Shown here: piece by piece, positions 2,030 to 54,873 of the stretch
Position numbering within the stretch: the stretch's first letter is position 1
Layout of the letters: each line of letters opens with the position of its first letter
DNA from: Gammaproteobacteria bacterium
GTDB taxonomy: Bacteria > Pseudomonadota > Gammaproteobacteria > Eutrophobiales > Eutrophobiaceae
Length of the DNA: 64,000 bases
Assembly (NCBI GenBank): GCA_004297165.1
Contig: SCUJ01000006.1
Coordinates: 62,001-126,000, forward strand
Reading direction: 5' to 3'
Notes under the pieces: model-generated
What the model saw: the letters and a program-made list of their open reading frames with translations, nothing else
What the model was told of the DNA's origin: nothing
Database searches by the model: none
Program-made: the position numbers and the translations under genes

Positions 2030-2099
2030 TTAGGGTTTAGGGATTAGGGTATAGATCAAATATACCTACACCCTACACCCTATTCCCTATCACCAATAC
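2030..2099. repeat. heptanucleotide repeat arrays in inverted orientation between convergent genes
   Basis: The whole gap between the kinase stop and the receptor stop consists of 7-bp units. The left arm reads TTAGGGT, TTAGGGA, TTAGGGT. After a short AT-rich spacer the right arm is in the opposite sense (ACACCCT, ACACCCT, ATTCCCT). The arms can pair into a long imperfect hairpin that could end transcription from both sides, though there is no T run. Units of the same style occur at 47383-47410. Confidence 0.8.
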
Positions 2100-38820: not shown

Positions 38821-39167
38821 TCGCGCGACATCACTTTTTCGAACGGTGAATCAGTGTGTTCGGCGGATAGAAATGATCTTTTCCACCGCACACCCCTCCC
38901 ACCCGGGAGAGGGGTAGGGGGTGAGGGAAAAGCGGTATCTCAGAGATCTCATTTTCCTCATCCCCGGCCCTTCTCCCGGAGGGCGAAGGGAGTTGTCCAG
39001 TCGGCTTTCAGCCGACATAAAGATGAACACAGAGCCTTACAGGGGGGAGTGTAGTTCAGGTTTTTTCCCGGAAAGAAATCTTGTGGCGGCATCACGCATA
39101 GTCGGTATAATTCGCACATCCTGAAACCTGAACGAACCTTTCATCCGCCGGATCAGATTCAACCCGC
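38821..39167. other. 347-base gap before nuoA: inverted dispersed repeat, small hairpin, promoter
   Basis: No gene is supported. 38893-38928 and 38955-38990 are inverted copies of one C-rich motif (CCTCAYCCCC with TCTCCCGG) that can form a long hairpin, probably ending GH3 transcription. A second perfect stem GTCGGCT/AGCCGAC lies at 39000-39016. The distal part holds the candidate nuo promoter. Confidence 0.6.
39081..39111 (+). promoter_or_regulatory. candidate promoter of the nuo operon
   Basis: TTGTGG at 39081-39086 and a consensus TATAAT at 39106-39111 are separated by 19 bases, 57 bases ahead of the nuoA start. The spacer is slightly long; the -10 match is perfect. Confidence 0.45.
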
Positions 39168-39524
39168 ATGCTCGAGAATTATCTGCCAATCCTGCTGTTT
39201 CTGATCGTGGGCTTCGGTCTCGGCATCGTCCTCTTCGTTCTGGGTTATTTCATCGGTCCCAACCGGCCGAACCCAATCAAGGGTTCCCCCTACGAATGCG
39301 GTTTCGAGGCGTTCGAGGACGCCCGCATGAAGTTCGACGTGCGCTATTACCTGGTCGCCATACTATTCATCCTCTTCGACCTGGAGATCGCCTTTCTCTT
39401 TCCCTGGGCGGTCGCGTTGGACGGGATCGGGCTGGCGGGTTTCTGGGCGATGATGTTCTTCCTCGCCGTCCTGGTGGCCGGGTTCATCTACGAATGGCGC
39501 AAGGGCGCGCTGGATTGGGAGTGA
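39168..39524 (+). CDS. nuoA: NADH-quinone oxidoreductase subunit A
   Basis: A 118-residue membrane subunit with three transmembrane helices. Conserved loop [22 protein letters not shown] between helices 1 and 2 carries the Cys of subunit ND3 at the quinone site. First gene of the 14-gene complex I operon; nuoB starts 4 bases after the stop. ATG 39168 is the only start giving the family N-terminus. Confidence 0.97.
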
Positions 39525-39528
39525 GCCG

Positions 39529-40032
39529 ATGACCGCAATGACCGCGAATCCCCCCGAAATTATCACGGATCACCGGAATTTCATGGTGACCTCCGTGGAC
39601 AATCTGGTGAACTGGGCGCGCACCGGTTCGCTCTGGCCGGTGACCTTCGGTCTTGCCTGCTGCGCGATCGAGATGATGCATACCGGCGCCGCTCGCTACG
39701 ATTTGGATCGCTTCGGCATCATGTTCCGGCCAAGCCCCAGGCAGGCCGATGTCATGATCGTGGCCGGCACGCTCACCAACAAGATGGCCCCGGCGCTGCG
39801 CAAGGTCTATGACCAGATGGCGGAGCCGAAGTGGGTGATCTCCATGGGGTCCTGCGCCAACGGCGGCGGTTATTATCATTACTCCTATTCGGTCGTGCGC
39901 GGCTGCGATCGCATCATCCCCGTGGATATTTATGTCCCCGGCTGCCCGCCGACGCCCGAGGCGCTGTTGTACGGGATCATCCAGTTGCAGAACAAGATCA
40001 AGAGGACCGGCAAGAACTGTTTTGCCCGCTGA
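39529..40032 (+). CDS. nuoB: NADH-quinone oxidoreductase subunit B
   Basis: A 167-residue peripheral subunit holding the terminal [4Fe-4S] cluster N2, which donates to quinone. Ligands are in [11 protein letters not shown] (adjacent cysteines), [17 protein letters not shown] and [14 protein letters not shown]. The N-terminal residues before about 15 are variable. It contacts NuoC and NuoD in the connecting part of the complex. Confidence 0.98.
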
Positions 40033-40043
40033 TCGATCCCCTC

Positions 40044-40697
40044 ATGAATCAAACCAACGAACACCTGCTGGAACGGCTGCGCGAGCGCTTCAACGGCCTG
40101 TTGATCGAGGCGCGACTGAACACCGGCCAGATCACCCTCGAATTATTGCCCGAGAACCTGATCGAGGTGTGCCGTGCCCTCCGTGACGAGCCTGAATTCA
40201 ACTTTGCGCAACTCTCGGATGTCTGCGGCGTCGATTATATGCACTACGGTCAGGCCGACTGGGAGACGAGGGACACGACCAGCACCGGCTTCAGCCGCGG
40301 GGTCGACCAGGGCGTCTACGCGAAAACAGTGCGTTCTTTCCCCGCCCGTTTCGCCTCCGTTTATCATTTGCTTTCGCTCGCCCACAATTGCCGGTTGCGG
40401 GTGCGCTGCTTCCTGCCGTCGGACCCGCCGCAGGTCAGCTCCGTGACGGATCTCTGGCCATCCGCGAACTGGTTCGAGCGGGAGGCCTTCGATCTCTTCG
40501 GCATCCTGTTCGAAGGGCATCCCGATCTGCGGCGGATCCTCACGGATTACGGTTTCATCGGCCATCCGTTCCGCAAGGATTTCCCGTTGGAAGGCAATGT
40601 GGAGGTCCGTTACGACCCCGATCAGAAGCGGGTGATTTATCAACCCGTGACCATCGAGAACCGCGTCCTGGGCCCGAGGGTGATCCGCGATGCCTGA
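40044..40697 (+). CDS. nuoC: NADH-quinone oxidoreductase subunit C
   Basis: A 217-residue peripheral subunit (30-kDa subunit type). [20 protein letters not shown] followed by [20 protein letters not shown] is the family signature. NuoC is separate from NuoD here, unlike the fused NuoCD of enteric bacteria. ATG 40044 ([12 protein letters not shown]) is 11 bases after nuoB. The gene overlaps nuoD by 8 bases. Confidence 0.96.
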
Positions 40698-41943
40698 AAT
40701 TCGGAACATGACCGTAAATTTCGGGCCCCAACACCCGGCGGCCCATGGGGTGCTGCGGCTCGTGCTCGAAATGGACGGCGAGGTCATCGTGCGCGCCGAC
40801 CCGCACATCGGCCTGCTGCATCGCGGCACGGAGAAACTGGCCGAGAGCAAACCTTTCAACCAGAGCATCGGTTATCTGGATCGTACGGATTACATCTCGA
40901 TGATGTGCAACGAGCATGCCTATGTGCTCGCGATCGAGAAACTGCTAGGCATCGCCCCGCCAAAGCGGGCGCAATATATAAGAGTGATGTTCGCGGAGAT
41001 CACCCGTATCCTGAATCATGCCTTCTGGCTCGCGGCGCATGCGCTGGACTGCGGGGCGATGACCGTATTTCTTTATGCCTTCCGCGAGCGCGAGGACCTG
41101 CTGGATTGTTACGAGGCTGTCTCGGGCACGCGCATGCATGCCACCTATTTCCGGCCCGGCGGGGTTTACCGGGATCTGCCCGAGCGCATGCCCCAGTACC
41201 AGGCCTCGCGCTGGCTGAGCGAGAAGGACGCCGCCGCCCGCAATGCGGATCGCCAGGGCTCGCTGCTCGATTTCATCGAGGCCTTCACCCAAAGATTCCC
41301 GGCCTACATCGACGAGTACGAAACCCTCCTCACCGACAACCGCATCTGGAAGCAACGCACGGTCGGCATCGGCGTGGTCTCCCCGGAACGCGCCATCGCG
41401 CTCGGCTTCACCGGCTGCATGTTGCGCGGTTCCGGTGTGGAATGGGACCTGCGCAAGAAGCAGCCCTATGAGGTCTATCCCGAACTTGATTTCGACATCC
41501 CCGTCGGCAAGGAAGGGGACTGCTACGACCGCTACCTCGTGCATATCGAGGAGTTGCGGCAGTCCAACCGGATCATCAAGCAGTGCGTGGACTGGCTCCG
41601 CGCCAATCCTGGGCCGGTGATGATCGACGATCACAAATTCAGCCCGCCGCAACGGGAAAAGATGAAGGGCGACATGGAATCCCTCATCCACCACTTCAAG
41701 CTGTTCACCGAGGGTTATTGCGTGCCGGAGGGCGAGGTCTATGTCCCGATCGAGCACCCCAAGGGTGAGTTCGGCGTCTATCTGATCTCCGACGGGGCCA
41801 ACAAGCCCTATCGCATCAAGATCCGTTCGTCCGCCTTCACGCATCTGTCCGGGATCAACGACCTCGTGGAGGGGCACATGCTGGCGGATGTGGTCGCGGT
41901 GCTCAGCACGCTGGATATCGTCTTCGGCGAGGTGGACCGCTGA
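40690..41943 (+). CDS. nuoD: NADH-quinone oxidoreductase subunit D
   Basis: A 417-residue subunit (49-kDa type) that forms the quinone cavity with NuoB. Features are [20 protein letters not shown] at the N-terminus, [31 protein letters not shown] and the C-terminal [19 protein letters not shown]. Overlaps nuoC by 8 bases, and its TGA shares a base with the nuoE ATG. Confidence 0.98.
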
Positions 41944-42440
41944 TGTCCGGGAACAACGGTCAGATCCTGGACGCGCACACTGTCGCGGAGATCGAGCACT
42001 GGCTCGGCAAATATCCGCCGGAGCAGCGGCAATCCGCCGTGCTCGCGGCCCTGCGCGCCGCCCAGCACCAGAATCACGGGTATCTGACGGTCGAGGTCAT
42101 GGATGCCGTGGCGGAATATCTGGGCATGCCCAGGATCGCCGTCTACGAGGTGGCGACCTTTTATTCCATGTTCGAGACCAAACCGGCGGGGCGGCACAGC
42201 ATCTCGGTCTGCACGAACATCTCCTGCATGCTGAACGGGGCCGATGACCTCGTCGCCTACATCGAAGGCAAACTCGGGATCAAGACCGGCGAGAGCACGT
42301 CCGACGGACGCATCCATCTCAAGCGCGAGGAGGAATGCCTCGCGGCCTGCTGCGGCGGACCGATGCTGATGGTGGACCACGTCTATCACGAAAACCTGAC
42401 CAAGGCCAAGATTGATCGGATCCTGGAGCAACTGGACTGA
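41943..42440 (+). CDS. nuoE: NADH-quinone oxidoreductase subunit E
   Basis: A 165-residue subunit (24-kDa type) of the NADH-dehydrogenase module with one [2Fe-2S] cluster, N1a. Ligands are seen in SVCTNISC and [10 protein letters not shown]. The N-terminal helical region includes [14 protein letters not shown]. One-base overlaps (TGATG) with both neighbours indicate translational coupling. Confidence 0.97.
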
Positions 42441-43750
42441 TGAGCGGGATAAAACAAAATCAGGTCTGCTTCACCACGCTCCAGTTTGATGAACCCTGGA
42501 CCCTGGAGAATTACCGCAAGATCGGCGGCTACGAGGCCTGGAAGAAGATCCTCACGGAGCGGATCCCGCCCGAGAAGATCATCGAGGAGGTCAAGGCCTC
42601 CGGTCTGCGCGGCCGCGGCGGCGCGGGATTCCCGGCGGGCCTGAAATGGAGTTTCATGTCCTCGCCCAACATCAAGGGACAGAAGTACGTGGTCTGCAAT
42701 TCCGACGAGAGCGAACCGGGGACCTGCAAGGATCGCGACATCCTGCGCTTCAACCCGCACGCGACCGTAGAGGGCATGGCCATCGCCTGCTACGCCATGG
42801 GCGCCACCGTCGGTTACAACTACCTGCGCGGTGAATTCATGGATGAACCCTTCCTGCGGTTCGACAACGCCCTGCGCGAGGCCTATGCCGCCGGGTGTCT
42901 CGGCCGGAACGTGCTGGGTTCGGATTTCTCCGTCGATATCCATGCCTCGCTCGGCGCGGGGGCCTACATCTGTGGCGAGGAGACCGCGCTGCTGGAGTCG
43001 CTGGAAGGCAAGAAGGGGCAGCCCCGTTACAAGCCACCCTTTCCGGCGGCCTACGGGCTCTACGGCCGGCCGACCACGATCAACAACACCGAGACCTACA
43101 GCTCGGTGCCGGCCATCCTGCGCAACGGGGCCAAATGGTTCATGGATCTCGGCGTGGAGAACAGCGGCGGCATGAAAATATTCTCCATGAGCGGCCACCT
43201 GAACCGTCCCGGCAATTTCGAGATCCCCATGGGCACCCCGTTCCGGGAACTGCTCAAGCTGGCCGGCGGCGTGCGGGACGGGCACAGGCTGAAGGCGGTG
43301 ATCCCCGGCGGTTCCTCGGTGCCCGTGGTCCCCGGCGAGGCCATGCTGGAGGCCAACATGGATTACGATTCCATCAAGAAGGCCGGCTCCATGCTGGGCT
43401 CGGGCGCCGTGGTGGTGATGGACGAGACCACCTGCATGGTGAAGATGCTGCACCGGATCACCCGGTTTTATTTTTCGGAGTCCTGCGGCCAGTGCACCCC
43501 GTGCCGCGAAGGCACCGGCTGGATGCACCGGATCGTCAACCGGATCATGACCGGACAGGGCAGACACGAAGATCTCGACAAGCTGGTGGATATCTCCAAA
43601 CGGATTGAGGGGCGGACCATCTGCGCGCTCGGCGATGCCGCCGCCTGGCCGGTGCAGGGCATGCTGCGGCATTACCGGCATGAATTCGAATACATGATCG
43701 ATCATGGCGGTAAAAGTTTGATCGAAGGTGAAGGAAGTAAAGCGGCGTGA
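42440..43750 (+). CDS. nuoF: NADH-quinone oxidoreductase subunit F
   Basis: A 436-residue subunit (51-kDa type) binding NADH, FMN and cluster N3. [15 protein letters not shown] is the NADH/FMN glycine loop, [16 protein letters not shown] lies at the flavin site, [19 protein letters not shown] follows, and the [4Fe-4S] motif is [16 protein letters not shown]. After it the usual tight gene packing is broken by about 135 bases of heptamer repeats before nuoG. Confidence 0.98.
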
Positions 43751-43885
43751 TTAGACATTTGTCATTGGTCATTAGTCATTTGTTAAAAACACAACTGACA
43801 ACGGACAACGGACAACTGACAACGGACAACGGACAACTGACAACGGACAACGGACAACTGACAAGTGACAAGTGACAAGTGACCA
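43751..43885. repeat. heptanucleotide repeat arrays between nuoF and nuoG
   Basis: The entire nuoF-nuoG gap is built of 7-bp units. The left arm (43751-43784) has TCATTTG, TCATTGG, TCATTAG, TCATTTG. After AAAAAC the right arm runs in the opposite sense: three perfect 21-bp blocks of ACAACTG-ACAACGG-ACAACGG (43791-43853), then ACAACTG and three ACAAGTG, then ACCAATG, ACAGATG. The last units contain the nuoG start codon. The outer parts of the two arms are complementary. Confidence 0.92.
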
Positions 43886-46267
43886 ATGACAGATGACGGC
43901 ATAACAATCGAGGTGAACGGCAAGTCTCTGCCCGCGCGCAAGGGTCAGATGCTGATCGAGGTCACCGATGCCAACGGCATTTATGTGCCGCGCTTCTGTT
44001 ATCACAAGAAACTGACCGTGGCCGCCAACTGCCGGATGTGCCTGGTCGAGGTGGAGAAGGCGCCGAAACCCGTGCCGGCCTGCGCCACCCCGGTCATGAA
44101 CGGCATGAAGGTCTTCACCCGCAGCCCGCTCGCCGTGGAGGCGCAGAAGTCCGTCATGGAGTTTCTGCTCATCAATCATCCCCTCGATTGCCCCATCTGC
44201 GATCAGGGTGGGGAATGCGAATTGCAGGATCTGGCCATGGGTTACGGTCGCGATGTCTCCCGTTACCAGGAACGCAAGCGCGTCGTGGGGGATCGGGACA
44301 TCGGGCCGCTGGTCCAGACCGAGATGACCCGCTGCATCCATTGCACCCGCTGCGTGCGCTTCGGCGAGGAGATCGCCGGCCTGCGCGAGCTCGGGGCCAC
44401 GGGCCGGGGCGAACACACCCTGATCGGCACCTATGTCGAAAAGGCGATGGAATCGGAACTCTCCGGCAATGTCATCGACCTCTGTCCGGTGGGCGCGCTC
44501 ACCTCGAAGCCCTTCCGCTTTTCAGCCCGGACTTGGGAGATGCGTCAGATGTCAGGGATTGCCCCGCATGACGGCATCGGCTCGAATCTGCATTTTCATG
44601 TGAAGGGGCAGACTGTGAAACGCGTGGTCCCGGCCGAGAACGAGAGCATCAACGAGGTCTGGCTCTCCGATCGGGATCGGTTCAGTTATGAAGGGCTCTA
44701 CAGCGACGACCGTCTTTCGACCCCCATGGTCAAGCAGGGCGAAGAGTGGCGGGAGGTGGACTGGATGACGGCCTTCGAGGTGATCAAGGACCGCCTCGGG
44801 CTCATCCTGAACGCGGGTGGCCCCGAACGCATCGGCGCGCTGGCCGCGCCCACCTCGACCACGGAAGAATTGTACCTCTTGCAGAAACTCATGCGCGGCC
44901 TGGGTTCGAACAACATCGACCATCGTCTGCGGCAGACGGATTTCGGCGACGATACGGAGGCCCCGATATTTCCCTGGCTCGGTCAATCCATCGTCGAACT
45001 GGAACAGCTTGATGCCGCTTTGCTGATAGGGGGCAATGTACGCAAGCAGCAACCCCTGTTGAACCATCGACTGCGCAAGGCGGCCGGCAAGGGCGCGGCG
45101 ATCATGGCGGTGAATCCCGTCGATTACGAATTCAATTACCCGCTCGCCGCACGGATCGTCGCCGGTCCGGGACAGATCCCCGCCGCATTGGCCGGGATCG
45201 TCCAGGCCCTGCTGGAGGCGGGCAGGACCCTGCCCGATCCCTCCGCTGCCGCATTGTTGAACGGGATACAGGCCGACGCGAACCACCGGGCCATCGCTGA
45301 CCGGTTGCTCAAAGCCGGCAAAGCCGCGGTCCTGCTGGGCGATCTGGCCATGAACCTGCCGGGACTTCCGGCGGTGCGTTATCTGTCGGGGATTATTGCC
45401 GCGATGACCGGGGCCAGGTTCGGATATGCGGGAACGGCCGCGAACGGCAGCGGGGCCTGGCTTGCCGGGGCCGTGCCGCACCGGCTGCCGGGAGGCCAAC
45501 CTTCGCCGCATGCGGGACTGAACGCCCGCGCGATGCTGGAGCGGCGGCTCTCCGCCTACGTACTGCTGAATGTCGAACCGGAATTTGATTGTCATGACCC
45601 GGTCGGCGCCCGTAACGCCCTCGGTGGCGCACAATGCGTCATCGCCATTACGGCATACCGGACGTCGGCGATGAATTTTTATGCCGATGTCCTCCTGCCG
45701 GCCGCCATCTACGCCGAGAATGAAGGCAGTTTCATCAACGTGGAGGGCAGGGAACAACGCTTCGGCGCCGCAGTGCGGCCTCAGGGCGAGGCCCGTCCGG
45801 CCTGGAAGATCCTGCGTGTGCTCGGCGAGAGTTTTTGTCCCGGCGCATTCAACCTGGACGATATCGAAGCGGTGCATGCCGCGATCCATGCGGATATGCA
45901 AGGGATCGAACCGCGGAATCTCGACGCCTGGCTGCGGCCGGACAGTCTGCCGTGGGTGAACGGCGCGCTGCAACGCCTGACGGAGGTGCCAATCTATTCA
46001 GGCGACCCCCTGGTGCGCCGCGCCCGGTCGCTGCAACGTACGCATGACGCGGGCGACGGTATGGCACATATCGCGCCGGGTGATGCCGGCCGGCAGGGCA
46101 TCACGAATGGCGATCGGATTTTGCTGAAGCAGGGCGGAGAGACCGCGGAGTTGCCCGCAGTGATTGACGCTCGGCTGCCCGAGGGCACGCTCCTGTTGCA
46201 GGCCGGCAATCCGGCGTGTTTCGGGCTCGGACCGGAAACGGGAGAGATCGAGATCGGGCGCGCCTGA
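43886..46267 (+). CDS. nuoG: NADH-quinone oxidoreductase subunit G
   Basis: A 793-residue subunit (75-kDa type). The N-terminal ferredoxin part holds [2Fe-2S] N1b ([20 protein letters not shown]), then a His/Cys cluster site in [20 protein letters not shown] and a four-Cys site beginning [19 protein letters not shown]. The remainder is a molybdopterin-oxidoreductase-like fold that binds no cofactor in complex I. The ATG at 43886 lies inside a heptamer unit (ACCAATG) and no Shine-Dalgarno is visible. The translated N-terminus [12 protein letters not shown] matches the family, so this start is probably real. Confidence 0.95.
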
Positions 46268-46280
46268 CGGAAACGAGACC

Positions 46281-47369
46281 ATGTTCGAATTCATCAGACA
46301 ACAATTATGGACACCCCTGATTAACTTCATGGTGCCGGAGGCCTACCAGGGCTATGCCCTGCTTACCCTGGATGCCCTTACCAAGGTGATTGTGGTACTG
46401 GTGTGCGTGCTGACGGCGTTCGCCTATACCACATACGCCGAGCGCCGCATCATCGGTCTGATCCAGTTGCGCCTCGGTCCGAACCGGGTGGGTTTCTTCG
46501 GCTTCCACACTTTCGGTCTCGCGCAACCTCTTGCCGATGGCGTGAAGGCGATCTTCAAGGAAATCATCATCCCGACCGGCGCCAACAAAACCTTGTTCAT
46601 CATCGCGCCCGTCCTTTCGCTCGGTCCCGCGCTCGCGGCCTGGGCGGTGATCCCCTTCAGCGAGGGCATGGTGCTGGCCGACATCAACGCCGGCCTGCTG
46701 TACGTGATCGCGCTGACCTCGCTTGCGGTCTACGGCATCATCATCGCGGGCTGGGCCTCGAATTCCAAATACGCCTTCCTGGGGGCAATGCGATCCGCGG
46801 CGCAGATCGTCGCCTACGAGATCGCCATGGGCTTCGCCCTGGTGGGGGTTCTGGTGGCGTCTGGCAGTCTCAACCTGGGGGATATCGTACGGGCCCAGTC
46901 CGGCAGCGTGCTTAACTGGTTCTGGCTGCCGCTCCTGCCGCTGTTCCTGGTGTATTACATCTCCGGTGTCGCCGAGACTAATCGCGCGCCGTTCGATGTG
47001 GTGGAAGGGGAGACCGAGATCGTGGCGGGTTATCAGGTGGAATACAGCGGCATGCACTTCGCCATATTCTTCATGGCCGAGTACGCCAACATGATCCTGG
47101 TCTCGACGCTGACCGCCATCATGTTCTGGGGCGGCTGGCTGTCGCCGTTTCAGGGCGTGCCGGTGCTGGGCGAGCCGCACATCCTCTGGCTCCTGGCGAA
47201 GGCAGCCTTCTTTCTTTATCTGTTTCTTTGGATCCGGGCGACCTTTCCGCGGTATCGTTACGATCAGATCATGCGGCTCGGCTGGAAGGTGTTCATACCG
47301 ATCACCATCGTCTGGATCGTGGTCGTCGCCGGGCTGGTTGTGAGCCATATACCACCGTGGTTCAATTGA
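46281..47369 (+). CDS. nuoH: NADH-quinone oxidoreductase subunit H
   Basis: A 362-residue membrane subunit (ND1 type) with eight or more helices, joining the membrane arm to the quinone site. Conserved [55 protein letters not shown] and [18 protein letters not shown] are present. ATG 46281 ([10 protein letters not shown]) lies 13 bases after nuoG. It is followed by a 28-base heptamer array that ends on the nuoI start. Confidence 0.97.
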
Positions 47370-47382
47370 TCAATGCACTACA

Positions 47383-47410
47383 CCCTATTACCTATTACCT
47401 ATAACCTATG
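47383..47410. repeat. four tandem heptamers ending in the nuoI start codon
   Basis: CCCTATT, ACCTATT, ACCTATA, ACCTATG occupy 47383-47410 without interruption. The final ATG is the first in-frame start of nuoI. The array fills the site where a Shine-Dalgarno sequence would be expected. The units match the right arm at 2030-2099 in style. Confidence 0.85.
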
Positions 47411-47902
47411 GTGATGCAAGCGATCCGAAATTATCTCAAGAGCCTCTTTCTCCTGGAGATGCTCAAGGGTCTGCTGCTGACCAACCGTTACCTGTTCAAG
47501 CGCAAGATCACCGTTCAGTATCCGGAGGAGAAGACCCCTCAGTCGAACCGCTTCCGGGGACTGCACGCCCTGCGCCGCTACCCCAACGGCGAGGAACGCT
47601 GCATCGCCTGCAAACTGTGCGAGGCGGTGTGTCCCGCGGTCGCGATCACCATTGAATCGGAAATGCGGGCGGATGGTTCCCGCCGCACGACCCGTTACGA
47701 CATCGATCTGGCGAAGTGTATCTATTGCGGCTTTTGCGAGGAATCCTGCCCGGTGGACTCCATCGTCATGACCCGGATCTTCGAGTACCACGGGGAAAAG
47801 AAAGAGGACCTGATCATGACCAAGCAACGACTGCTGGAGGTTGGCGATCGCAATGAGGCGCAGATCGCCGCCGATAGGGCGCAGGACGCCAGGTACAGGT
47901 AA
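47408..47902 (+). CDS. nuoI: NADH-quinone oxidoreductase subunit I
   Basis: A 164-residue subunit with two [4Fe-4S] clusters (N6a, N6b): [12 protein letters not shown] and [12 protein letters not shown], plus [16 protein letters not shown]. Three starts are adjacent (ATG 47408, GTG 47411, ATG 47414). Homologues begin at about the third, so [10 protein letters not shown] is possible. No ordinary ribosome binding site exists because the upstream bases are a heptamer array. Confidence 0.95.
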
Positions 47903-47910
47903 AGGACGCC

Positions 47911-48510
47911 ATGATCGAGCAGACACTTTTTTATATTGCCGCGGCCGTGCTGGTCTTCGCCGCCAGCGCGGTGATCACCGTGCGCAATCCCGTGGTCGCC
48001 GCGCTGACCCTGGTGTTGTGCTTCTTCTGCAACGCAGCCATCTGGCTGTTGCTGGAGGCCGAATTCCTCGCCATCGTGCTGGTGCTTGTCTACGTCGGCG
48101 CGGTGATGGTGCTGTTCCTGTTCGTGGTGATGATGCTGGACATCAATATCGCCGAACTGCGCAAGGGTTTTTCCGGATTTCTCCCCATCGGCGTGACGGT
48201 CGCACTGATAATGGTCATCAGCATGGTGCTCGTGCTGGCCTCCGGGTATTTCGCGGGACCGGAGTACGTGCCGCTCAAGCACGCGGCGGAATACAGCAAC
48301 ACACGTGAACTCGGCCTGCTGTTGTACTCGGAATATCTCTATCCCTTCGAGATCGCCGGGGCGATCCTGCTGGTGGCGATCGTCGCCGCCATTGCCCTCA
48401 CCCACAGGCGTGCCAAAAACAACAAATCCCCGGCCCCCGGGACCCAGGTGGCCGTCAAGCGGGAGGACCGCATCCGGCTGGTCAAGATGAAGACGGAGCA
48501 ACAATCATGA
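47911..48510 (+). CDS. nuoJ: NADH-quinone oxidoreductase subunit J
   Basis: A 199-residue membrane subunit (ND6 type) with five helices; [20 protein letters not shown] and [17 protein letters not shown] are characteristic. The C-terminal 40 residues are basic and cytoplasmic ([16 protein letters not shown]). AAGGA precedes ATG 47911, and the stop overlaps nuoK by 4 bases. Confidence 0.96.
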
Positions 48511-48812
48511 TCGCCCTCCAGCAAGTCCTGGTCCTCGGCGCCATCCTGTTCTGCATCAGCGTGGCGGGGATCTTCATCAACCGCAAGAATGTTCTGATCC
48601 TGCTGATGTGCATCGAACTGATGCTGCTGTCGGTGAACCTGAATTTCATCGCCTTCTCGCATTTCCTGGGCAACATCCACGGCCAGGTCTTCGTGTTCTT
48701 CATCCTGACGGTCGCGGCCGCCGAGTCTGCCATTGGGCTCGCGATCCTGGTGGTGCTGTTCCGCAACCGCGGGACCATCAATGTCACCGAACTGGATTCG
48801 ATGAAGGGCTGA
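48507..48812 (+). CDS. nuoK: NADH-quinone oxidoreductase subunit K
   Basis: A 101-residue membrane subunit (ND4L type) with three helices. The two intramembrane glutamates of the proton path lie in [18 protein letters not shown] and in [23 protein letters not shown] 48507 overlaps the nuoJ stop by 4 bases; nuoL follows 2 bases after the stop. Confidence 0.97.
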
Positions 48813-48814
48813 CC

Positions 48815-50785
48815 ATGAGCGATACCATCTATCTTGCCATCGTGCTCGCGCCGCTCATCGGCGCGGTAATCGCCGGGCTATTTGGCCGGGTCATCGGCAG
48901 GAGCGGGGCGCACTGGGTCACCATTGCCGGGGTCGGGATCGCCGCCATACTCTCGCTCGTCGTCTACAAGCACGTGGTCTTTGACGGCGCTGCTGTCCAT
49001 AACGCGGCGCTTTACACCTGGCTCAAGACCGGCGGTTTGTCCATCGAGGTGGGCTTCCTGATCGATCGCCTGTCCGCCACGATGATGGTCGTGGTGACCT
49101 TCGTCTCCTGGATGATCCATATCTACACCATCGGTTACATGCACGATGACCCCGGCTACCAGCGGTTCTTCAGCTACATGTCGCTGTTCACCTTCGCCAT
49201 GCTGATGCTGGTGATGTCGAACAACTTCATGCAACTGTTCTTCGGCTGGGAGGGCGTCGGCCTCGTCTCCTACCTGCTCATCGGTTTCTGGTTCAAACGG
49301 GAGACCGCGATCTTCGCGAACCTCAAGGCCTTCCTCGTGAACCGGGTGGGTGATTTCGGCTTCCTGCTCGGCATTGCCGCGATCCTGATGTACTTCCACT
49401 CGCTTGACTACGCGACAGTCTTCGCGATGGCGCCGGGACTCGCCGCCACGACGATCGAGATTTTCGAGGGCAGGGAATGGCTGCTCATGAGCTTCATCTG
49501 CATCTGTCTCTTCATCGGGGCGATGGGCAAGTCCGCGCAGGTCCCGTTGCACGTCTGGCTGCCGGATTCGATGGAAGGCCCGACGCCCATCTCGGCCCTG
49601 ATCCACGCGGCCACGATGGTCACCGCCGGGATCTTCATGGTCGCACGCATGTCGCCGCTCTATGAGTTATCGGAGACGGCCTTGAGCATGGTCCTGATCG
49701 TCGGGGCCATCACCGCCTTCTTCATGGGCCTGGTCGGCCTGGTGCAGAACGACATCAAGCGCGTGGTCGCCTATTCCACGCTCTCGCAACTCGGTTACAT
49801 GACGGTGGCCCTCGGGGCCTCGGCCTACGCGGCCGCGATCTTCCATCTCGTCACGCACGCCTTTTTCAAGGCGTTGCTCTTCCTCGGCGCCGGTTCGGTG
49901 ATCATCGCCATGCACCATGAGCAGGACATGCGCAGGATGGGCGGACTGTCCCGTTACCTGCCGGTGACCTGGATCACCTGCCTCGTTGGCTCGCTTGCCC
50001 TGATCGGTTTTCCGGGCACGGCCGGATTCTTCTCCAAGGACGCCATCATCGAGGCGGTGCACGAGTCGCAGCGCTTCGGCTCGGGGTTTGCCTACGTCGC
50101 GGTCCTGGCGGGCGTGTTCGTCACCGCGCTCTATTCCTTCCGGCTGTTCTTCCTGACCTTCCATGGCGCGCCGCGAATGGATCATCACACCCGCGAACAC
50201 CTGCACGAGTCGCCGAAGGTGGTCACTGTTCCGCTGACGGTACTGGCGATCCCCTCCGCCGTGCTCGGCTGGTTCCTGGCCGGTCCCATGCTCTATCAGG
50301 GTTATTTCCAGGACGCCATCCACGTCGCGCATGAGAACGATGTCCTGGGCGAGATGGCGGAAGGCTATCACGGGACCTGGCAATTCCTGCTGCATGCCTT
50401 CGGCGCGCCGGTGATCTACATCGCCTTTGCCGGTGTCCTGACGGCCTGGCTGTTGTATCTCAAATATCCCCACGTGCCGGCGCAACTCGCCGAACGTTTC
50501 GATTTTCTCTACCGCATCCTGGTGAACAAATACGGCTTCGACAGCGCCTATCAGAAACTCTTTGCGGAGGGCGCCCGCCGGATCGGGGAGGGCCTGTGGC
50601 GGGCCGGCGATATCACGATCATCGACGACATCTGCGTCAACGGCAGCGGCCACGTAGTGCGCTGGTGCGCGGGTCTGCTGCGGCGGCTGCAATCGGGTTT
50701 TCTCTATGACTATGCCTTTGCCATGATCATCGGCCTGCTCCTGTTGCTGGGTTATTTCCTGCCCTGGGCCAGTCTGCTGGGATAG
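48815..50785 (+). CDS. nuoL: NADH-quinone oxidoreductase subunit L
   Basis: A 656-residue proton-pumping membrane subunit (ND5 type), the most distal in the arm, with about 15 helices and the long lateral helix at its C-terminus. Family blocks: FFGWEGVGLVSYLLIGFW, GKSAQVPLHVWLPDSMEGPT, HAATMVTAGIFMVARM, and VQNDIKRVVAYSTLSQLGYM with key Lys. AAGGG precedes ATG 48815. The gap to nuoM contains three heptamer units. Confidence 0.97.
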   Translation: MSDTIYLAIVLAPLIGAVIAGLFGRVIGRSGAHWVTIAGVGIAAILSLVVYKHVVFDGAAVHNAALYTWLKTGGLSIEVGFLIDRLSATMMVVVTFVSWMIHIYTIGYMHDDPGYQRFFSYMSLFTFAMLMLVMSNNFMQLFFGWEGVGLVSYLLIGFWFKRETAIFANLKAFLVNRVGDFGFLLGIAAILMYFHSLDYATVFAMAPGLAATTIEIFEGREWLLMSFICICLFIGAMGKSAQVPLHVWLPDSMEGPTPISALIHAATMVTAGIFMVARMSPLYELSETALSMVLIVGAITAFFMGLVGLVQNDIKRVVAYSTLSQLGYMTVALGASAYAAAIFHLVTHAFFKALLFLGAGSVIIAMHHEQDMRRMGGLSRYLPVTWITCLVGSLALIGFPGTAGFFSKDAIIEAVHESQRFGSGFAYVAVLAGVFVTALYSFRLFFLTFHGAPRMDHHTREHLHESPKVVTVPLTVLAIPSAVLGWFLAGPMLYQGYFQDAIHVAHENDVLGEMAEGYHGTWQFLLHAFGAPVIYIAFAGVLTAWLLYLKYPHVPAQLAERFDFLYRILVNKYGFDSAYQKLFAEGARRIGEGLWRAGDITIIDDICVNGSGHVVRWCAGLLRRLQSGFLYDYAFAMIIGLLLLLGYFLPWASLLG

Positions 50786-50815
50786 AGACGCGGATCGCCG
50801 CCAATCACGCTACGA

Positions 50816-50836
50816 ATGACAAATAACAAGTGACAA
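50816..50836. repeat. three heptamer units immediately upstream of nuoM
   Basis: ATGACAA, ATAACAA, GTGACAA fill 50816-50836 and end one base before the nuoM ATG. The units share the ACAAGTGACA core of the nuoF-nuoG array. No Shine-Dalgarno sequence is seen between the array and the start. Confidence 0.7.
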
Positions 50837-50837
50837 C

Positions 50838-52355
50838 ATGCTAGAGAATCTGCCCCTACTCAGCCTGATCATCTGGGCCCCCATACTCGGCGGCGTCTGG
50901 GTGTTGTACGCCGGGGATCGGCAGGAACTGTCGGTGAAGTATTTCTCGCTGGCCGTCGCCATCCTGACGTTCCTGCTCTCCGTATTGCTCATGGCGGGAT
51001 TCGACAACAGCCTCTGGAACATGCAGTTCAGCGAGAAGTTCGCCTGGATCGAGGCCTTCGACATCAATTATCACCTTGGCATCGACGGTATCTCGCTGCC
51101 GCTGATCGTGTTGACCACCTTCACCACCATCCTCGTTATCATCGCGGGCTGGGAGGTGATCGAGCATCGCATCTCGCAGTATCTTGCGGCCTTCCTCATC
51201 CTTGAGGGCTGCATGATCGGGGCCTTCGCCGCGCTGGACGCCATCCTCTTCTATGTCTTCTGGGAGGCGATGCTGATCCCGATGTTCCTCATCATCGGGG
51301 TATGGGGCGGACCGCGGCGCGTTTACGCCACGATCAAGTTCTTCCTCTACACCTTTCTTGGCTCGGTGTTCATGCTGGTCGCCCTGCTGTACCTCTACAG
51401 CGAGGGCGGCAGCTTCGCGATCCTGGACATGCATCAGCTCCCGCTCAACCTGACCGAGCAGAAGCTGATCTTCCTCGCCTTTCTCGCGGCCTTTGCGGTC
51501 AAGGTGCCGATGTGGCCGGTGCATACCTGGCTGCCGGACGCGCACGTCGAGGCACCGACCGGCGGCTCCGTGATCCTCGCGGCCATCCTGCTGAAGATGG
51601 GCGGCTACGGACTGCTCCGCTTCAGCCTGCCGATCGCACCGGACGCGAGCCAGGCCTTCGACGGACTTATGATCACACTCTCCCTGATCGCGATTGTCTA
51701 CATCGGTTTCGTCGCGCTCGTGCAGCAGGACATGAAAAAGCTGATCGCCTATTCCTCCATCTCCCACATGGGTTTCGTCACCCTGGGCCTGTTCATCGGC
51801 TTTCGCATCCTCGCGGCGACCGGTTCCAGCGAGGGGGCGATCATGGGGCTTGAAGGCGGTATGATGCAGATGATCTCCCACGGCTTCATCTCGGGCGCGC
51901 TGTTCCTGTGCGTCGGGGTGATGTACGACCGCATGCACAGCCGCATGATCAAGGACTACGGCGGCGTGGCGAACACCATGCCGGCCTTCGCCGCCTTCAT
52001 GATGCTCTTCGCCATGGCCAACTCCGGCCTGCCGGGGACCTCGGGCTTCGTCGGCGAGTTCATGGTGATCCTGAGCAGCTTCCAGGCCTCGTTCTGGATC
52101 GCGTTGCTGGCCGCGACCATCCTGATCCTCGGCGCCGCCTACACCTTGTGGATGTACAAGCGGGTCATCTTCGGCGATATTGCGAACGAGCACGTGGCCG
52201 AGTTGCAGGACATCTCCTCGCGGGAAGGTTTGATCCTCGGGGCCCTCGCCATCGCGGTGCTCCTGTTCGGCATCTGGCCCGCGCCCATCTTCGAGATGAT
52301 GCAGCCGACCCTGCAACACCTCTTCGAGCACGTCATACAGACCAAGGCGGGATAG
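50838..52355 (+). CDS. nuoM: NADH-quinone oxidoreductase subunit M
   Basis: A 505-residue antiporter-like membrane subunit (ND4 type) with about 14 helices. FYVFWEAMLIPMFLIIGVWG carries the channel Glu. VKVPMWPVHTWLPDAHVEAP, VQQDMKKLIAYSSISHMGF and SGLPGTSGFVGEFMV are conserved. ATG 50838 lies one base after a heptamer array, which replaces the usual ribosome binding site. nuoN starts 2 bases after the stop. Confidence 0.97.
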   Translation: MLENLPLLSLIIWAPILGGVWVLYAGDRQELSVKYFSLAVAILTFLLSVLLMAGFDNSLWNMQFSEKFAWIEAFDINYHLGIDGISLPLIVLTTFTTILVIIAGWEVIEHRISQYLAAFLILEGCMIGAFAALDAILFYVFWEAMLIPMFLIIGVWGGPRRVYATIKFFLYTFLGSVFMLVALLYLYSEGGSFAILDMHQLPLNLTEQKLIFLAFLAAFAVKVPMWPVHTWLPDAHVEAPTGGSVILAAILLKMGGYGLLRFSLPIAPDASQAFDGLMITLSLIAIVYIGFVALVQQDMKKLIAYSSISHMGFVTLGLFIGFRILAATGSSEGAIMGLEGGMMQMISHGFISGALFLCVGVMYDRMHSRMIKDYGGVANTMPAFAAFMMLFAMANSGLPGTSGFVGEFMVILSSFQASFWIALLAATILILGAAYTLWMYKRVIFGDIANEHVAELQDISSREGLILGALAIAVLLFGIWPAPIFEMMQPTLQHLFEHVIQTKAG

Positions 52356-52357
52356 CG

Positions 52358-53794
52358 ATGGCACTGAGCGCGGAACTTTATTACCTGATCCCGGAAATCA
52401 TCCTGCTTTCCGGCGCCTGTCTTGTCCTCGTGCTGGATGCCGTTCTCGGCAAGGAGCAGTGGTCGTTCACCTATACCCTGACGCAACTCCTCCTGCTCGC
52501 GACCGCGGGGGCCATACTCTTTGTCGATCCGGGGCAGGCGGTTACCGTGCTCGGCGGGAATTTCATCCTGGATCCTCTGGGCGTGCTGCTCAAGGTCAGC
52601 ATCTGTCTGGTCGCCCTGCCGGTGTTCTTCTACGGGCACGATTACAATCTGGAACATGGCCTGCACAAGGGCGAGTATTACATCCTCGGCCTGTTCGCGA
52701 TCCTCGGGATGCTGGTGATGGCCTCCGCCGGCACGTTGCTGACCGTATATCTCGGCCTGGAACTGCTTTCGTTGTCCCTCTATGCCATGGTGGCCATGAA
52801 CCGCGATTCCCGGATGGCCTCCGAGGCGGCCATGAAATATTTCGTCCTGGGCGCGCTCGCCTCGGGCATGCTGCTCTACGGGATCTCCATGCTCTATGGC
52901 GCGACCGGCACGCTGCAACTGGCAGGGCTGGCGAATGCCATCGCGGGTCAGACGGACAACACCCTCATCCTGACCTTCGGCCTGATCTTCGTCATCGTGG
53001 GCATCGCCTTCAAGCTCGGCGCCGTGCCGTTTCACATGTGGGTCCCCGATGTGTACGAGGGTGCGCCGACCTCGGTCACGCTCTTCATCAGCAGTGTGCC
53101 GAAGATAGCCGCCTTCGCCATGGCGATGCGCGTGCTGGTGGACGGCATGCAGCCGCTGGCCGGGGACTGGCAGGGGATGCTGATCATCCTCTCCGTGCTT
53201 TCCATGATCGCCGGCAACGTCATCGCTATCGCCCAGACCAACATCAAGCGGATGTTCGCCTATTCGACCATCTCGCACGTCGGTTTCCTGCTGCTCGGGA
53301 TCATTGCCGCCAGGCCCGCGGGTTACGCGGCGGCGATGTTCTACGTGCTGGTGTATTCCCTGATGAGCATGGGCGGCTTCGCCATGGTCATCCTGCTCGG
53401 GCGCAAGGGCAAGGAGGCGGATCTGCTGGAGGACTTCAAGGGTCTCTCCGAGCGGAGCCCCTGGTTCGCCTTCGTCATGCTGATCCTGATGTTTTCCATG
53501 GCGGGCGTGCCGCCCTTCCTCGGCTTCTGGGCCAAATGGTTCGTGATCATGGAGGTCATCCGGGCCGGGTTCCCGATGCTCGCGGGCATCGCCGTGTTCT
53601 TCTCCGTCATCGGCGCCTATTACTACATCCGCATCATCAAGCTCATGTATTTCGACAAGCCACTCGAGATGAAGGCGATCAAATCCTCCAGACAGATGCG
53701 GACGGTGCTGAGCCTCAATGCCCTGAGTCTCCTCATCCTTGGCCTCTGGCCACCGCTCCTGATGGCGCTGTGCCTTAAGGCCATCGGTCTCTAA
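52358..53794 (+). CDS. nuoN: NADH-quinone oxidoreductase subunit N
   Basis: A 478-residue antiporter-like membrane subunit (ND2 type) with about 14 helices; last gene of the operon. VYLGLELLSLSLYAMVAMNR carries the channel Glu, followed by FKLGAVPFHMWVPDVYEGAP, QTNIKRMFAYSTISHVGFLL and SMAGVPPFLGFWAKWFV. ATG 52358 is 2 bases after nuoM. Confidence 0.97.
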   Translation: MALSAELYYLIPEIILLSGACLVLVLDAVLGKEQWSFTYTLTQLLLLATAGAILFVDPGQAVTVLGGNFILDPLGVLLKVSICLVALPVFFYGHDYNLEHGLHKGEYYILGLFAILGMLVMASAGTLLTVYLGLELLSLSLYAMVAMNRDSRMASEAAMKYFVLGALASGMLLYGISMLYGATGTLQLAGLANAIAGQTDNTLILTFGLIFVIVGIAFKLGAVPFHMWVPDVYEGAPTSVTLFISSVPKIAAFAMAMRVLVDGMQPLAGDWQGMLIILSVLSMIAGNVIAIAQTNIKRMFAYSTISHVGFLLLGIIAARPAGYAAAMFYVLVYSLMSMGGFAMVILLGRKGKEADLLEDFKGLSERSPWFAFVMLILMFSMAGVPPFLGFWAKWFVIMEVIRAGFPMLAGIAVFFSVIGAYYYIRIIKLMYFDKPLEMKAIKSSRQMRTVLSLNALSLLILGLWPPLLMALCLKAIGL

Positions 53795-54135
53795 GCCTTA
53801 AGCAACTTCTTTTAATATCTTCCCCGTCATTCCGGCGGGGCTCGTGTAGGTTGGTGGTGAGTGAAACGAACCCCAACATATTCATCCTGTCCCCGTATCG
53901 TTAACCGGGAACGAGTCAACTTCAATCAGGGCATATAAAAACCATACCCACAGGAGTAGGATCCCCCAGCATCACGAATGTATGGTGTCCTGCAGATATT
54001 GGATGGAGGGGATGTCCATGTATAACTACTTGTCGAATGATGGAAGGAAAAGCAGATGCGATACCCAATCCCATATCCGCTTTTACGACAAATGGCTCTT
54101 TAGCATCTAGTTAGGCACCATAAAGGAGATTTCAA
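53795..54135. other. 341-base gap after the nuo operon; no gene seen
   Basis: No reading frame is supported. CCCCGTCATTCCGGCGGGG at about 53823-53841 could form a short stem and is also a fragment of a common dispersed repeat. From about 53930 base composition becomes AT-richer, marking the edge of the accessory patch. AAGGAG at 54123-54128 is the ribosome binding site of the next gene. Confidence 0.6.
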
Positions 54136-54873
54136 TTGCTTGTGGAAGAACTAAAGAATCTTAAAAAAACAATAATTGAATCATTTCGCGAAGCTATGGA
54201 ATTCAAGGCTTTTACTGATCTTTCTTACTTGTTTGCCACTAACTTTGTACAAATTCCAGGAAGCAAAATAAGAATTGTATTGGGCCACTCTCAATATGGT
54301 GGAGCAGTTGGGTTATCTGACCAAGAAGTAACATCTGCAGATTTGCCAAATCATTTTTCCACCGCGAAAAATAATTATTTTTTCTCTCTTATCCACCAGC
54401 AGCAAGTTTCTTTGTTTGAAAGTCTATTTTTTGACGTAATTAGAATTTTGTTATCAGATAGACCAGAGAGGCTTTCCAAGAAAAAACAGATCGACTATGA
54501 GTCAATCTTTTCATCTGACACCAAAGAAGAAATCATATGGAAGCTCATAGATCGTGAGCTTAATGAAATAAAATACAAAAATGTCGTTGAATGGTTTGAT
54601 TATTTGAACAAGATGGTTACTCTTCCAGAAATCGATTCTCAGGATATAGAAAAAATATCTGAAGCTAAAGCTGCAAGAGACATACTTGTGCACAACTCTG
54701 GAATCATTAACCAGATATACATAAATAAATCTGGTGGTTCAGCTCGATTTACGATTGGTCAAAAAATTGATGTGTCCGGTGATTATACGAGGGATATTTG
54801 GCAACTTTTCGTCGAGTTATTGGTGACAATAGTCGATTCAATTATTCGTAAATGTGAGCAAGAATCTACTTAA
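54136..54873 (+). CDS. AT-rich orphan gene with HEPN-like R-x4-H motif
   Basis: A 245-residue soluble protein of unknown function. Base composition is far more AT-rich than all neighbours, and AAA, ATT and TTT codons are frequent, pointing to recent transfer. The TTG start at 54136 is supported by AAGGAG seven bases upstream. The C-terminal third has EAKAARDILVHNSGIINQI, an R-x4-H motif followed by Asn in a helical context, as in HEPN RNase domains (RiboL-PSP or MAE_28990 kinds). The N-terminal half, about residues 1-130, is predicted helical and unassigned. No partner gene (MNT, SWACOS or other antitoxin) is adjacent. A defence or stress-RNase role is a hypothesis only. Confidence 0.7.
   Translation: MLVEELKNLKKTIIESFREAMEFKAFTDLSYLFATNFVQIPGSKIRIVLGHSQYGGAVGLSDQEVTSADLPNHFSTAKNNYFFSLIHQQQVSLFESLFFDVIRILLSDRPERLSKKKQIDYESIFSSDTKEEIIWKLIDRELNEIKYKNVVEWFDYLNKMVTLPEIDSQDIEKISEAKAARDILVHNSGIINQIYINKSGGSARFTIGQKIDVSGDYTRDIWQLFVELLVTIVDSIIRKCEQEST

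Follow-up and report, generated by a model that had tools for sequence, protein, structure and literature searches.

Heptanucleotide repeat arrays at nuo operon junctions of a gammaproteobacterium: cases of a known repeat kind with a new comparative pattern

Three junctions of the complex I (nuo) operon in the Gammaproteobacteria bacterium assembly GCA_004297165.1 are occupied by tandem units of 7 bp. What are these arrays, and do they serve the starts of the genes behind them? We approached this question in a window of 64,000 nucleotides (contig SCUJ01000006.1, positions 62,001 to 126,000; G000:C13:62001-126000 in our numbering) from the source genome G000 (3.53 Mb, 13 contigs) and in related genomes. 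The feature is real and non-random, with a new comparative pattern, and the nuo arrays are cases of a known kind of heptad repeat and not a gene-start-specific device. That they are slippage-born, hairpin-forming intercistronic arrays of a genome- and family-wide repeat kind of exactly 7 bp is an explanation to which we give an even chance. A preliminary description of the window had suggested that the arrays may tune translation of single subunits or vary in copy number; its observations were confirmed in part, and its interpretation is partly supported.

Arrays at three nuo junctions

According to our own gene caller, which was trained on G000 and is crude on relatives, the nuo operon spans positions 39168 to 53794 of the window. 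As described before, most of its junctions are short or overlapping, 10 of the 13 measuring -8 to 13 nt; the spacers between nuoF and nuoG, nuoH and nuoI, and nuoL and nuoM (hereafter FG, HI and LM, other junctions being named likewise) comprise 135, 38 and 52 nt, respectively. Arrays were rated by a lag-7 score with self-set cut-offs, and the chance level was obtained by resampling the window 100 times with a first-order Markov model (top score 13.5, median maximum 8.5). The FG array consists of two facing arms. Its left arm (43750..43783, minus strand; GTCATTN on the plus strand, which is TGACNAN on the minus strand; score 14.5) shares one base with the nuoF stop codon, the last base of that codon, and its right arm (43791..43897, plus strand; score 72.5) begins with ACAACGG/ACAACTG units followed by TGACAAG and TGACCAA units. 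The HI array (47384..47409, plus strand) is built of CCTATTA/CCTATAA units and scores 16.5. Because their scores lie above the maximum of all 100 resampled windows, the FG and HI arrays exceed chance. The short LM array (50812..50836, plus strand; AATGACA AATAACA AGTGACA AC) reached a score of 8.0, which is within chance in the same resamplings by period alone, so that the claim of arrays at three junctions stood for two of them and, judged by periodicity, not for the third. The three complete LM words match the array word set of the G000 genome, and the LM spacer of the sister species G001 likewise has 52 nt and is heptad-like. The sequence said to be common to the nuoG and nuoM arrays, ACAAGTGACA, was indeed present in both. 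Tandem Repeats Finder agreed with the lag-7 calls of the window arrays, and no Rfam match at gathering score was obtained within 39000-54500.

How do the arrays relate to the start codons? The nuoG ATG at 43886, to which most relatives align, lies inside a unit of the right FG arm, as originally stated. For nuoI, the last unit had been thought to end in the ATG. Since the homologues in G003, G006 and G010 start ATGCAAGC, corresponding to ATG 47414 in G000 and not to 47408, nuoI probably starts at 47414 and the HI array stops a few nucleotides upstream; a last unit ending in the nuoI ATG is therefore doubtful. The reported lack of Shine-Dalgarno sites at nuoG, nuoI and nuoM was reproduced, but is not distinctive, as nuoA, nuoC, nuoH, nuoL and nuoN are likewise without one and 24 of the 57 window genes possess a site (four-of-seven definition). 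Within the family, sites were counted at nuoG in 3 of 21 genomes and at nuoI in 4 of 19, with or without arrays. Upstream of nuoL and nuoM the four-mer occurred in 0 of 17 and 0 of 16 family operons, respectively, at nuoM again regardless of arrays. Since array-free relatives have just as few sites at nuoG, nuoI and nuoM, the reading that arrays explain their absence is not supported; judged by this sequence comparison, they did not delete sites kept in relatives.

Arrays throughout the genome and the family

Is the repeat peculiar to nuo? In G000, TGACNANTGACNANTGAC gave 39 forward and 48 reverse matches (87 in all; reversed control 0 and 0), and CCTANNNCCTANNNCCTA gave 48 and 20 (68; reversed control 4 and 0). 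The window together with the stretches fetched around pattern matches contains 37 array loci with arms of at least three units. Thirteen of these are two-armed with the minus arm left of the plus arm, and the opposite order was found at none. Only one of 54 arms lies inside a called gene. The 53 intergenic arms point to starts in 28 cases and to stops in 25, which does not agree with the special link to translation starts that had been proposed; 40 of them are at most 30 bp from the boundary to which they point and 9 at most 30 bp from the opposite one. Words interchange within some arrays with the phase kept, from CCTATCC to CCTATGA to CCAATGA (L085, L092, L095, L096), and for this reason the word families TGACNAN and CCTANNC look like one continuum. 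An array is also present between atpA and the next gene.

In the window itself, a convergent junction (2030-2090) is filled by facing CCTA-type arms, the left one at 2030..2049 (minus strand, TTAGGGT/TTAGGGA units, score 10.5) and the right one at 2065..2090 (plus strand, CCTACAC/CCTATTC units, score 14.0). Neither these arms nor the two-armed form of the FG array had been mentioned in the preliminary description. At L094 (G000:C13 about 1183220-1183450), heptad arms flank ~110 nt with the inverted ends GGAAACTCTGAATAAGT...ACTTATTCAGAGTTTCC, resembling a small insertion element within an array, and GGGCGATCACAAGGATCGCCC hairpin elements directly adjoin heptad arrays at L096 (5260-5503 and 13400-13680). 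One contig starts within a CCCTAAC heptad array (L087, G000:C12:1-45), so assemblies may be interrupted at arrays and the number of arrays underestimated.

Recurrence through the genome supports the preliminary description, and so does the finding that relatives have arrays at corresponding junctions of their nuo operons. NuoG was detected in 34 of 36 genomes. In the operons of G000 and 20 relatives, rated at each junction that the stretches contain, 26 nuo junctions score at least 10 at lag 7, compared to 4 at the best of nine other lags. They are distributed over FG (8), CD (5), HI (5), IJ (4), JK (2), BC (1) and DE (1), and among the 21 genomes no such junction was found at AB, EF, GH, KL, LM or MN. 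FG arrays are also present in G005 and G014, whose operon stretches lack nuoF. Altogether, ten relatives from nine other genera carry CD, FG, HI or IJ arrays (G002, G003, G005, G010, G011, G013, G014, G016, G017 and G020). Their words are mostly other ones, CAAGCTA, ACAGACT, GTGATTA, GTAGGTG, CCTCGTT and CCACCAG among them; TGACNAN at nuoG is common to G003, G013 and G014, and three-unit matches of this word occur in 6 of 58 genomes including G000. Short counterparts of the FG and HI arrays occur in the sister species G001, and the presumed variability in copy number was found between species, with about 20 FG units in G000 and 2-4 in G001. Junction arrays were absent from the nuo operons of G004, G006, G007, G012, G015, G019, G021 and G022, and G018 showed a single weak AT-rich array at BC. 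Since the array-bearing genera are dispersed over the Nuo protein tree (eight proteins, several incomplete, some weak nodes), the arrays would either be ancient with frequent losses or have arisen several times.

Among named records, MGYR01000015.1 (RIFCSPLOWO2_02_FULL_56_15, a gammaproteobacterial metagenome-assembled genome) encodes a NuoG with 77% identity and has an FG junction as in G001, and the other 27 named NuoG loci are 41-65% identical over the best segment, several of them from Thiotrichaceae or Thiomargarita. A hairpin similar to the GGGCGATCACAAGGATCGCCC elements, GGGCAACCACAAGGGATTGCCC, stands upstream of nuoG in the Thiomargarita record L106. G044 was dismissed as a carrier of the same word, the evidence being weak and the reversed control matching as well (32 and 29). 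A universal polarity with the AC-rich strand outward was likewise given up, as it is broken by CAAGNNA words in G005 and G020.

The period is specific, and the arrays are concentrated in certain operons. In 57 NuoG loci (474 kb), period 7 yielded 27 arrays scoring at least 12 and other periods 0-6, with 13 arrays at the harmonic period 14. Nine relatives, namely the ten listed above without G016, were labelled array-rich after their nuo operons had been inspected; outside nuo they showed 22 arrays in 18 clusters in 426 kb sampled, compared to 0 arrays in 479 kb sampled from the eleven others. Because this label followed the inspection, the density test for nuo was run on all 20 relatives with an operon stretch, and G000 was omitted because the operon had been picked owing to its arrays there. 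We obtained 27 clusters in 290 kb of nuo stretches, whereas the 848 kb of samples taken from these 20 genomes contained 18; the stratified expectation is 9.1, and 0 of 200,000 simulations reached the observed number. For the atp and ribosomal operons, 12 genomes were screened for atpA and rpsC, and ten stretches per operon were used, with G000 among each ten and omitted from the counts. The atp operons contain 12 clusters in 94 kb versus 17 in 425 kb sampled (p = 0.0015) and the ribosomal operons 12 in 129 kb versus 17 in 416 kb (p = 0.019); pooled, there are 24 in 223 kb versus 17 in 476 kb (p = 4e-4).

Hairpins, possible origin and rival explanations

Can the facing arms pair in the transcript? 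RNA folding of 43748-43920, from the nuoF stop to nuoG codon 11, resulted in a z score of -5.46 with 0 of 200 shuffles as stable, and the FG spacer folded alone in one of -3.0. The predicted stem joins 43756..43785 to 43866..43895 (both on the plus strand) by 29 pairs with one unpaired base, and its 3' half contains the nuoG AUG (43886-43888). Since the AUG can thus sit inside the predicted stem, an effect of the FG array on translation is possible. Junctions of 40-260 nt with arrays have a median fold z of -3.59 (n = 21) versus -0.43 for those without (n = 37; p = 5.6e-4), and those with at least two arms one of -5.35 (n = 10). Neighbouring arm pairs are inverted in 36 of 44 cases, and arms pair better with their own partner than with arms of other loci in the same genome (p = 2.5e-5, using the inner 28 nt of each arm). 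Arms could match in this way because the stem is under selection or because one arm served as the template for its partner. At the array-free nuoD-nuoE junctions of L163 (G006) and L172 (G017) stand strong CACAGAG-type hairpins, so other types of intercistronic hairpin exist in the nuo operon.

As to the origin, slippage in steps of 7 nt might lengthen a spacer until the coding sequence sets a limit, one arm could be copied from or matched to the other via the hairpin, and word changes would spread in phase along the array. In Escherichia coli, intercistronic hairpins of repetitive extragenic palindromic (REP) sequences and bacterial interspersed mosaic elements (BIME) affect mRNA decay or initiation of the next gene. 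By analogy, paired arms in the operon mRNA may form an intercistronic hairpin acting on decay or on initiation of the following gene; at nuoG the predicted stem includes the start codon. The nuoI and nuoM arrays, each a lone arm without a partner, may have no effect. More tentatively, junction hairpins of 7-bp words in nuo, atp and ribosomal operons might be kept across genera with the word replaced wholesale in both arms together, a proposal that we regard as doubtful. If true, it would imply selection on the stem rather than on the sequence, for example in setting subunit ratios, or an active process by which one arm is copied off its partner, 7 nt at a time.

Several observations weigh against slippage-born, hairpin-forming intercistronic arrays. 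Twenty-two of the 37 G000 loci are one-armed and two more have arms on the same strand only, arms also occur between convergent and divergent genes, and the ribosomal stretch of G000 lacks any array scoring at least 11. Some array-free junctions fold strongly (G006 DE, z -13.4; G011 GH, -8.1; G017 DE, -7.3), and the FG pair taken alone pairs no better than swaps (-0.56 vs -0.57, inner 28 nt only). The idea that the arms act as a staple, folding out the spacer so that stop meets start, was rejected: at 22 two-arm junctions folding brought stop and start no closer to each other than in shuffled sequences (median p 0.315), and 113 array-free junctions gave a median p of 0.55 (difference p = 0.08). 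The arrays might instead be neutral filler, products of slippage without effect that permissive spacers tolerate; inverted arms would then arise incidentally when a hairpin serves as template for copying, and would stay for want of any process that removes them. This alternative fits the loci with one arm only, the placement of other arms at stops or in convergent junctions, the negative distance test and the missing conserved word among relatives. It also fits the result that none of the 23 family genomes has SbcD over cut-off, a deficit that may allow hairpins to survive. Against it stand the arms, which are matched at each locus though the words differ, and the array density, which in nuo, atp and ribosomal operons is 2-4 times that of the sampled stretches, these having been chosen by contig number or position and not at random; neutrality is possible, though we would not expect it. 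As a cause of the arrays, loss of SbcD can be at most permissive since it is absent over cut-off in array-rich and array-poor genomes alike (overall, 1 of 36 genomes has it over cut-off), and loss of mismatch repair was discarded, as MutS is over cut-off in G000 and all nine array-rich relatives.

The remaining alternatives are improbable to different degrees. Units bound by S1, a cold-shock or a Csr-type protein could replace the Shine-Dalgarno sequence, a role of the kind proposed for TAACTGA in Beggiatoaceae (PMC4679880). The lacking sites at nuoG, nuoI and nuoM, start codons that often fall within the last unit of an array, and the TGACNAN three-unit matches of G013 (two) and G014 (one), all confined to the nuoG start, would suit such an element, but with 25 of 53 arms pointing to stops, Shine-Dalgarno sites just as rare in array-free relatives and words at the same start differing between genera, we consider it unlikely. 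Even less probable is mobile dispersal by Y1/REP-associated transposases. Y1_Tnp (PF01797) is over cut-off in 9 of 9 array-rich and 4 of 11 array-poor relatives, but this correlation is only partial and the candidate was dropped: the G000 match is below cut-off, the sole hit in G011 and in G020 is a short IS200-like one, a heptad array scoring at least 11 was seen in only 3 of 20 fetched transposase stretches, and the words are locus-specific. Least credible to us is a phase-variable contingency locus in which unit number toggles complex I subunits. The different FG unit numbers of the sister species would agree with it, but the arrays lie outside the coding frame save for first codons, and similar ones adjoin atp and ribosomal genes in relatives, which are unlikely contingency genes.

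Comparison with known repeats

Heptanucleotide tandem arrays are known from cyanobacteria as short tandemly repeated repetitive (STRR) sequences, which the present arrays resemble in kind and in their location in spacers. With the enterobacterial REP/BIME elements they share hairpins between genes of one operon, but they consist of variable tandem 7-bp words without a fixed palindromic unit, and in contrast to REP elements with their associated tyrosine transposases (RAYT) they show no consistent link to a Y1 transposase.

The preliminary description had called such arrays unexpected in a proteobacterial operon, which is not supported, as heptad arrays have been published for Xanthomonas (PMC4692102) and Beggiatoaceae (PMC4679880). 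The former describes GGGAATC and GGGGA(C/T)T heptads in Xanthomonas and Nostoc, mostly intergenic and near the ends of open reading frames; their G-rich strand is the non-coding one ahead of starts and the coding one behind stops. Inverted pairs are reported (70 for Xcc and 75 for Xac), many of the genes concerned are metabolic, and 83% of positions are conserved between two Xanthomonas species. G000 likewise has 7-bp tandem units dispersed genome-wide near the ends of open reading frames with inverted pairs, and its words CCTATTC, CCTATCC and CCTAACC follow that polarity. A single substitution separates GATTCCC and AATCCCC from the five commonest G000 words, and it does so on this strand alone (4.1% for random heptads); AGTCCCC is two substitutions away. 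G000 differs in also having TGACNAN words that grade into CCTA-type words, and unlike the quadruplex-capable GGGNATC/GGGGAYT words, the nuo words (TGACNAN, CCTATTA) are not G-rich; G000 loci outside nuo do carry GGGGATA/GGGGTTA words.

In marine Beggiatoaceae, also Gammaproteobacteria, TAACTGA units reach the start codon, mostly without a Shine-Dalgarno site and at essential genes as well, and related 7-mers interrupt some sets (PMC4679880). The G000 units similarly extend up to start codons. The Beggiatoaceae sets are mostly upstream of starts with one inverted repeat, whereas the G000 arms stand equally at starts and stops and are often inverted. The exact word TAACTGA is missing from the 17 tandem word classes of G000, and the nearest of the commonest words in this genome differs from it by two substitutions. 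Neither of the two papers reports a function proven for heptad repeats of bacteria; both cite the idea that the 7-bp step reflects polymerase contacts.

The family studied here contains two word types that grade into each other within one genome, and its homologous CD, FG, HI and IJ junctions offer a direct test ground for word replacement, arm matching and effects on the operon. In the literature searched, from which subscription journals were mostly absent, no title or abstract dealt with homologous operon junctions at which heptad arrays had exchanged one word for another. The repeat kind itself has already been published; in contrast to the conserved Xanthomonas positions (PMC4692102), junctions here recur across genera with other words, and what is new is the change of word at a persisting junction and stem.

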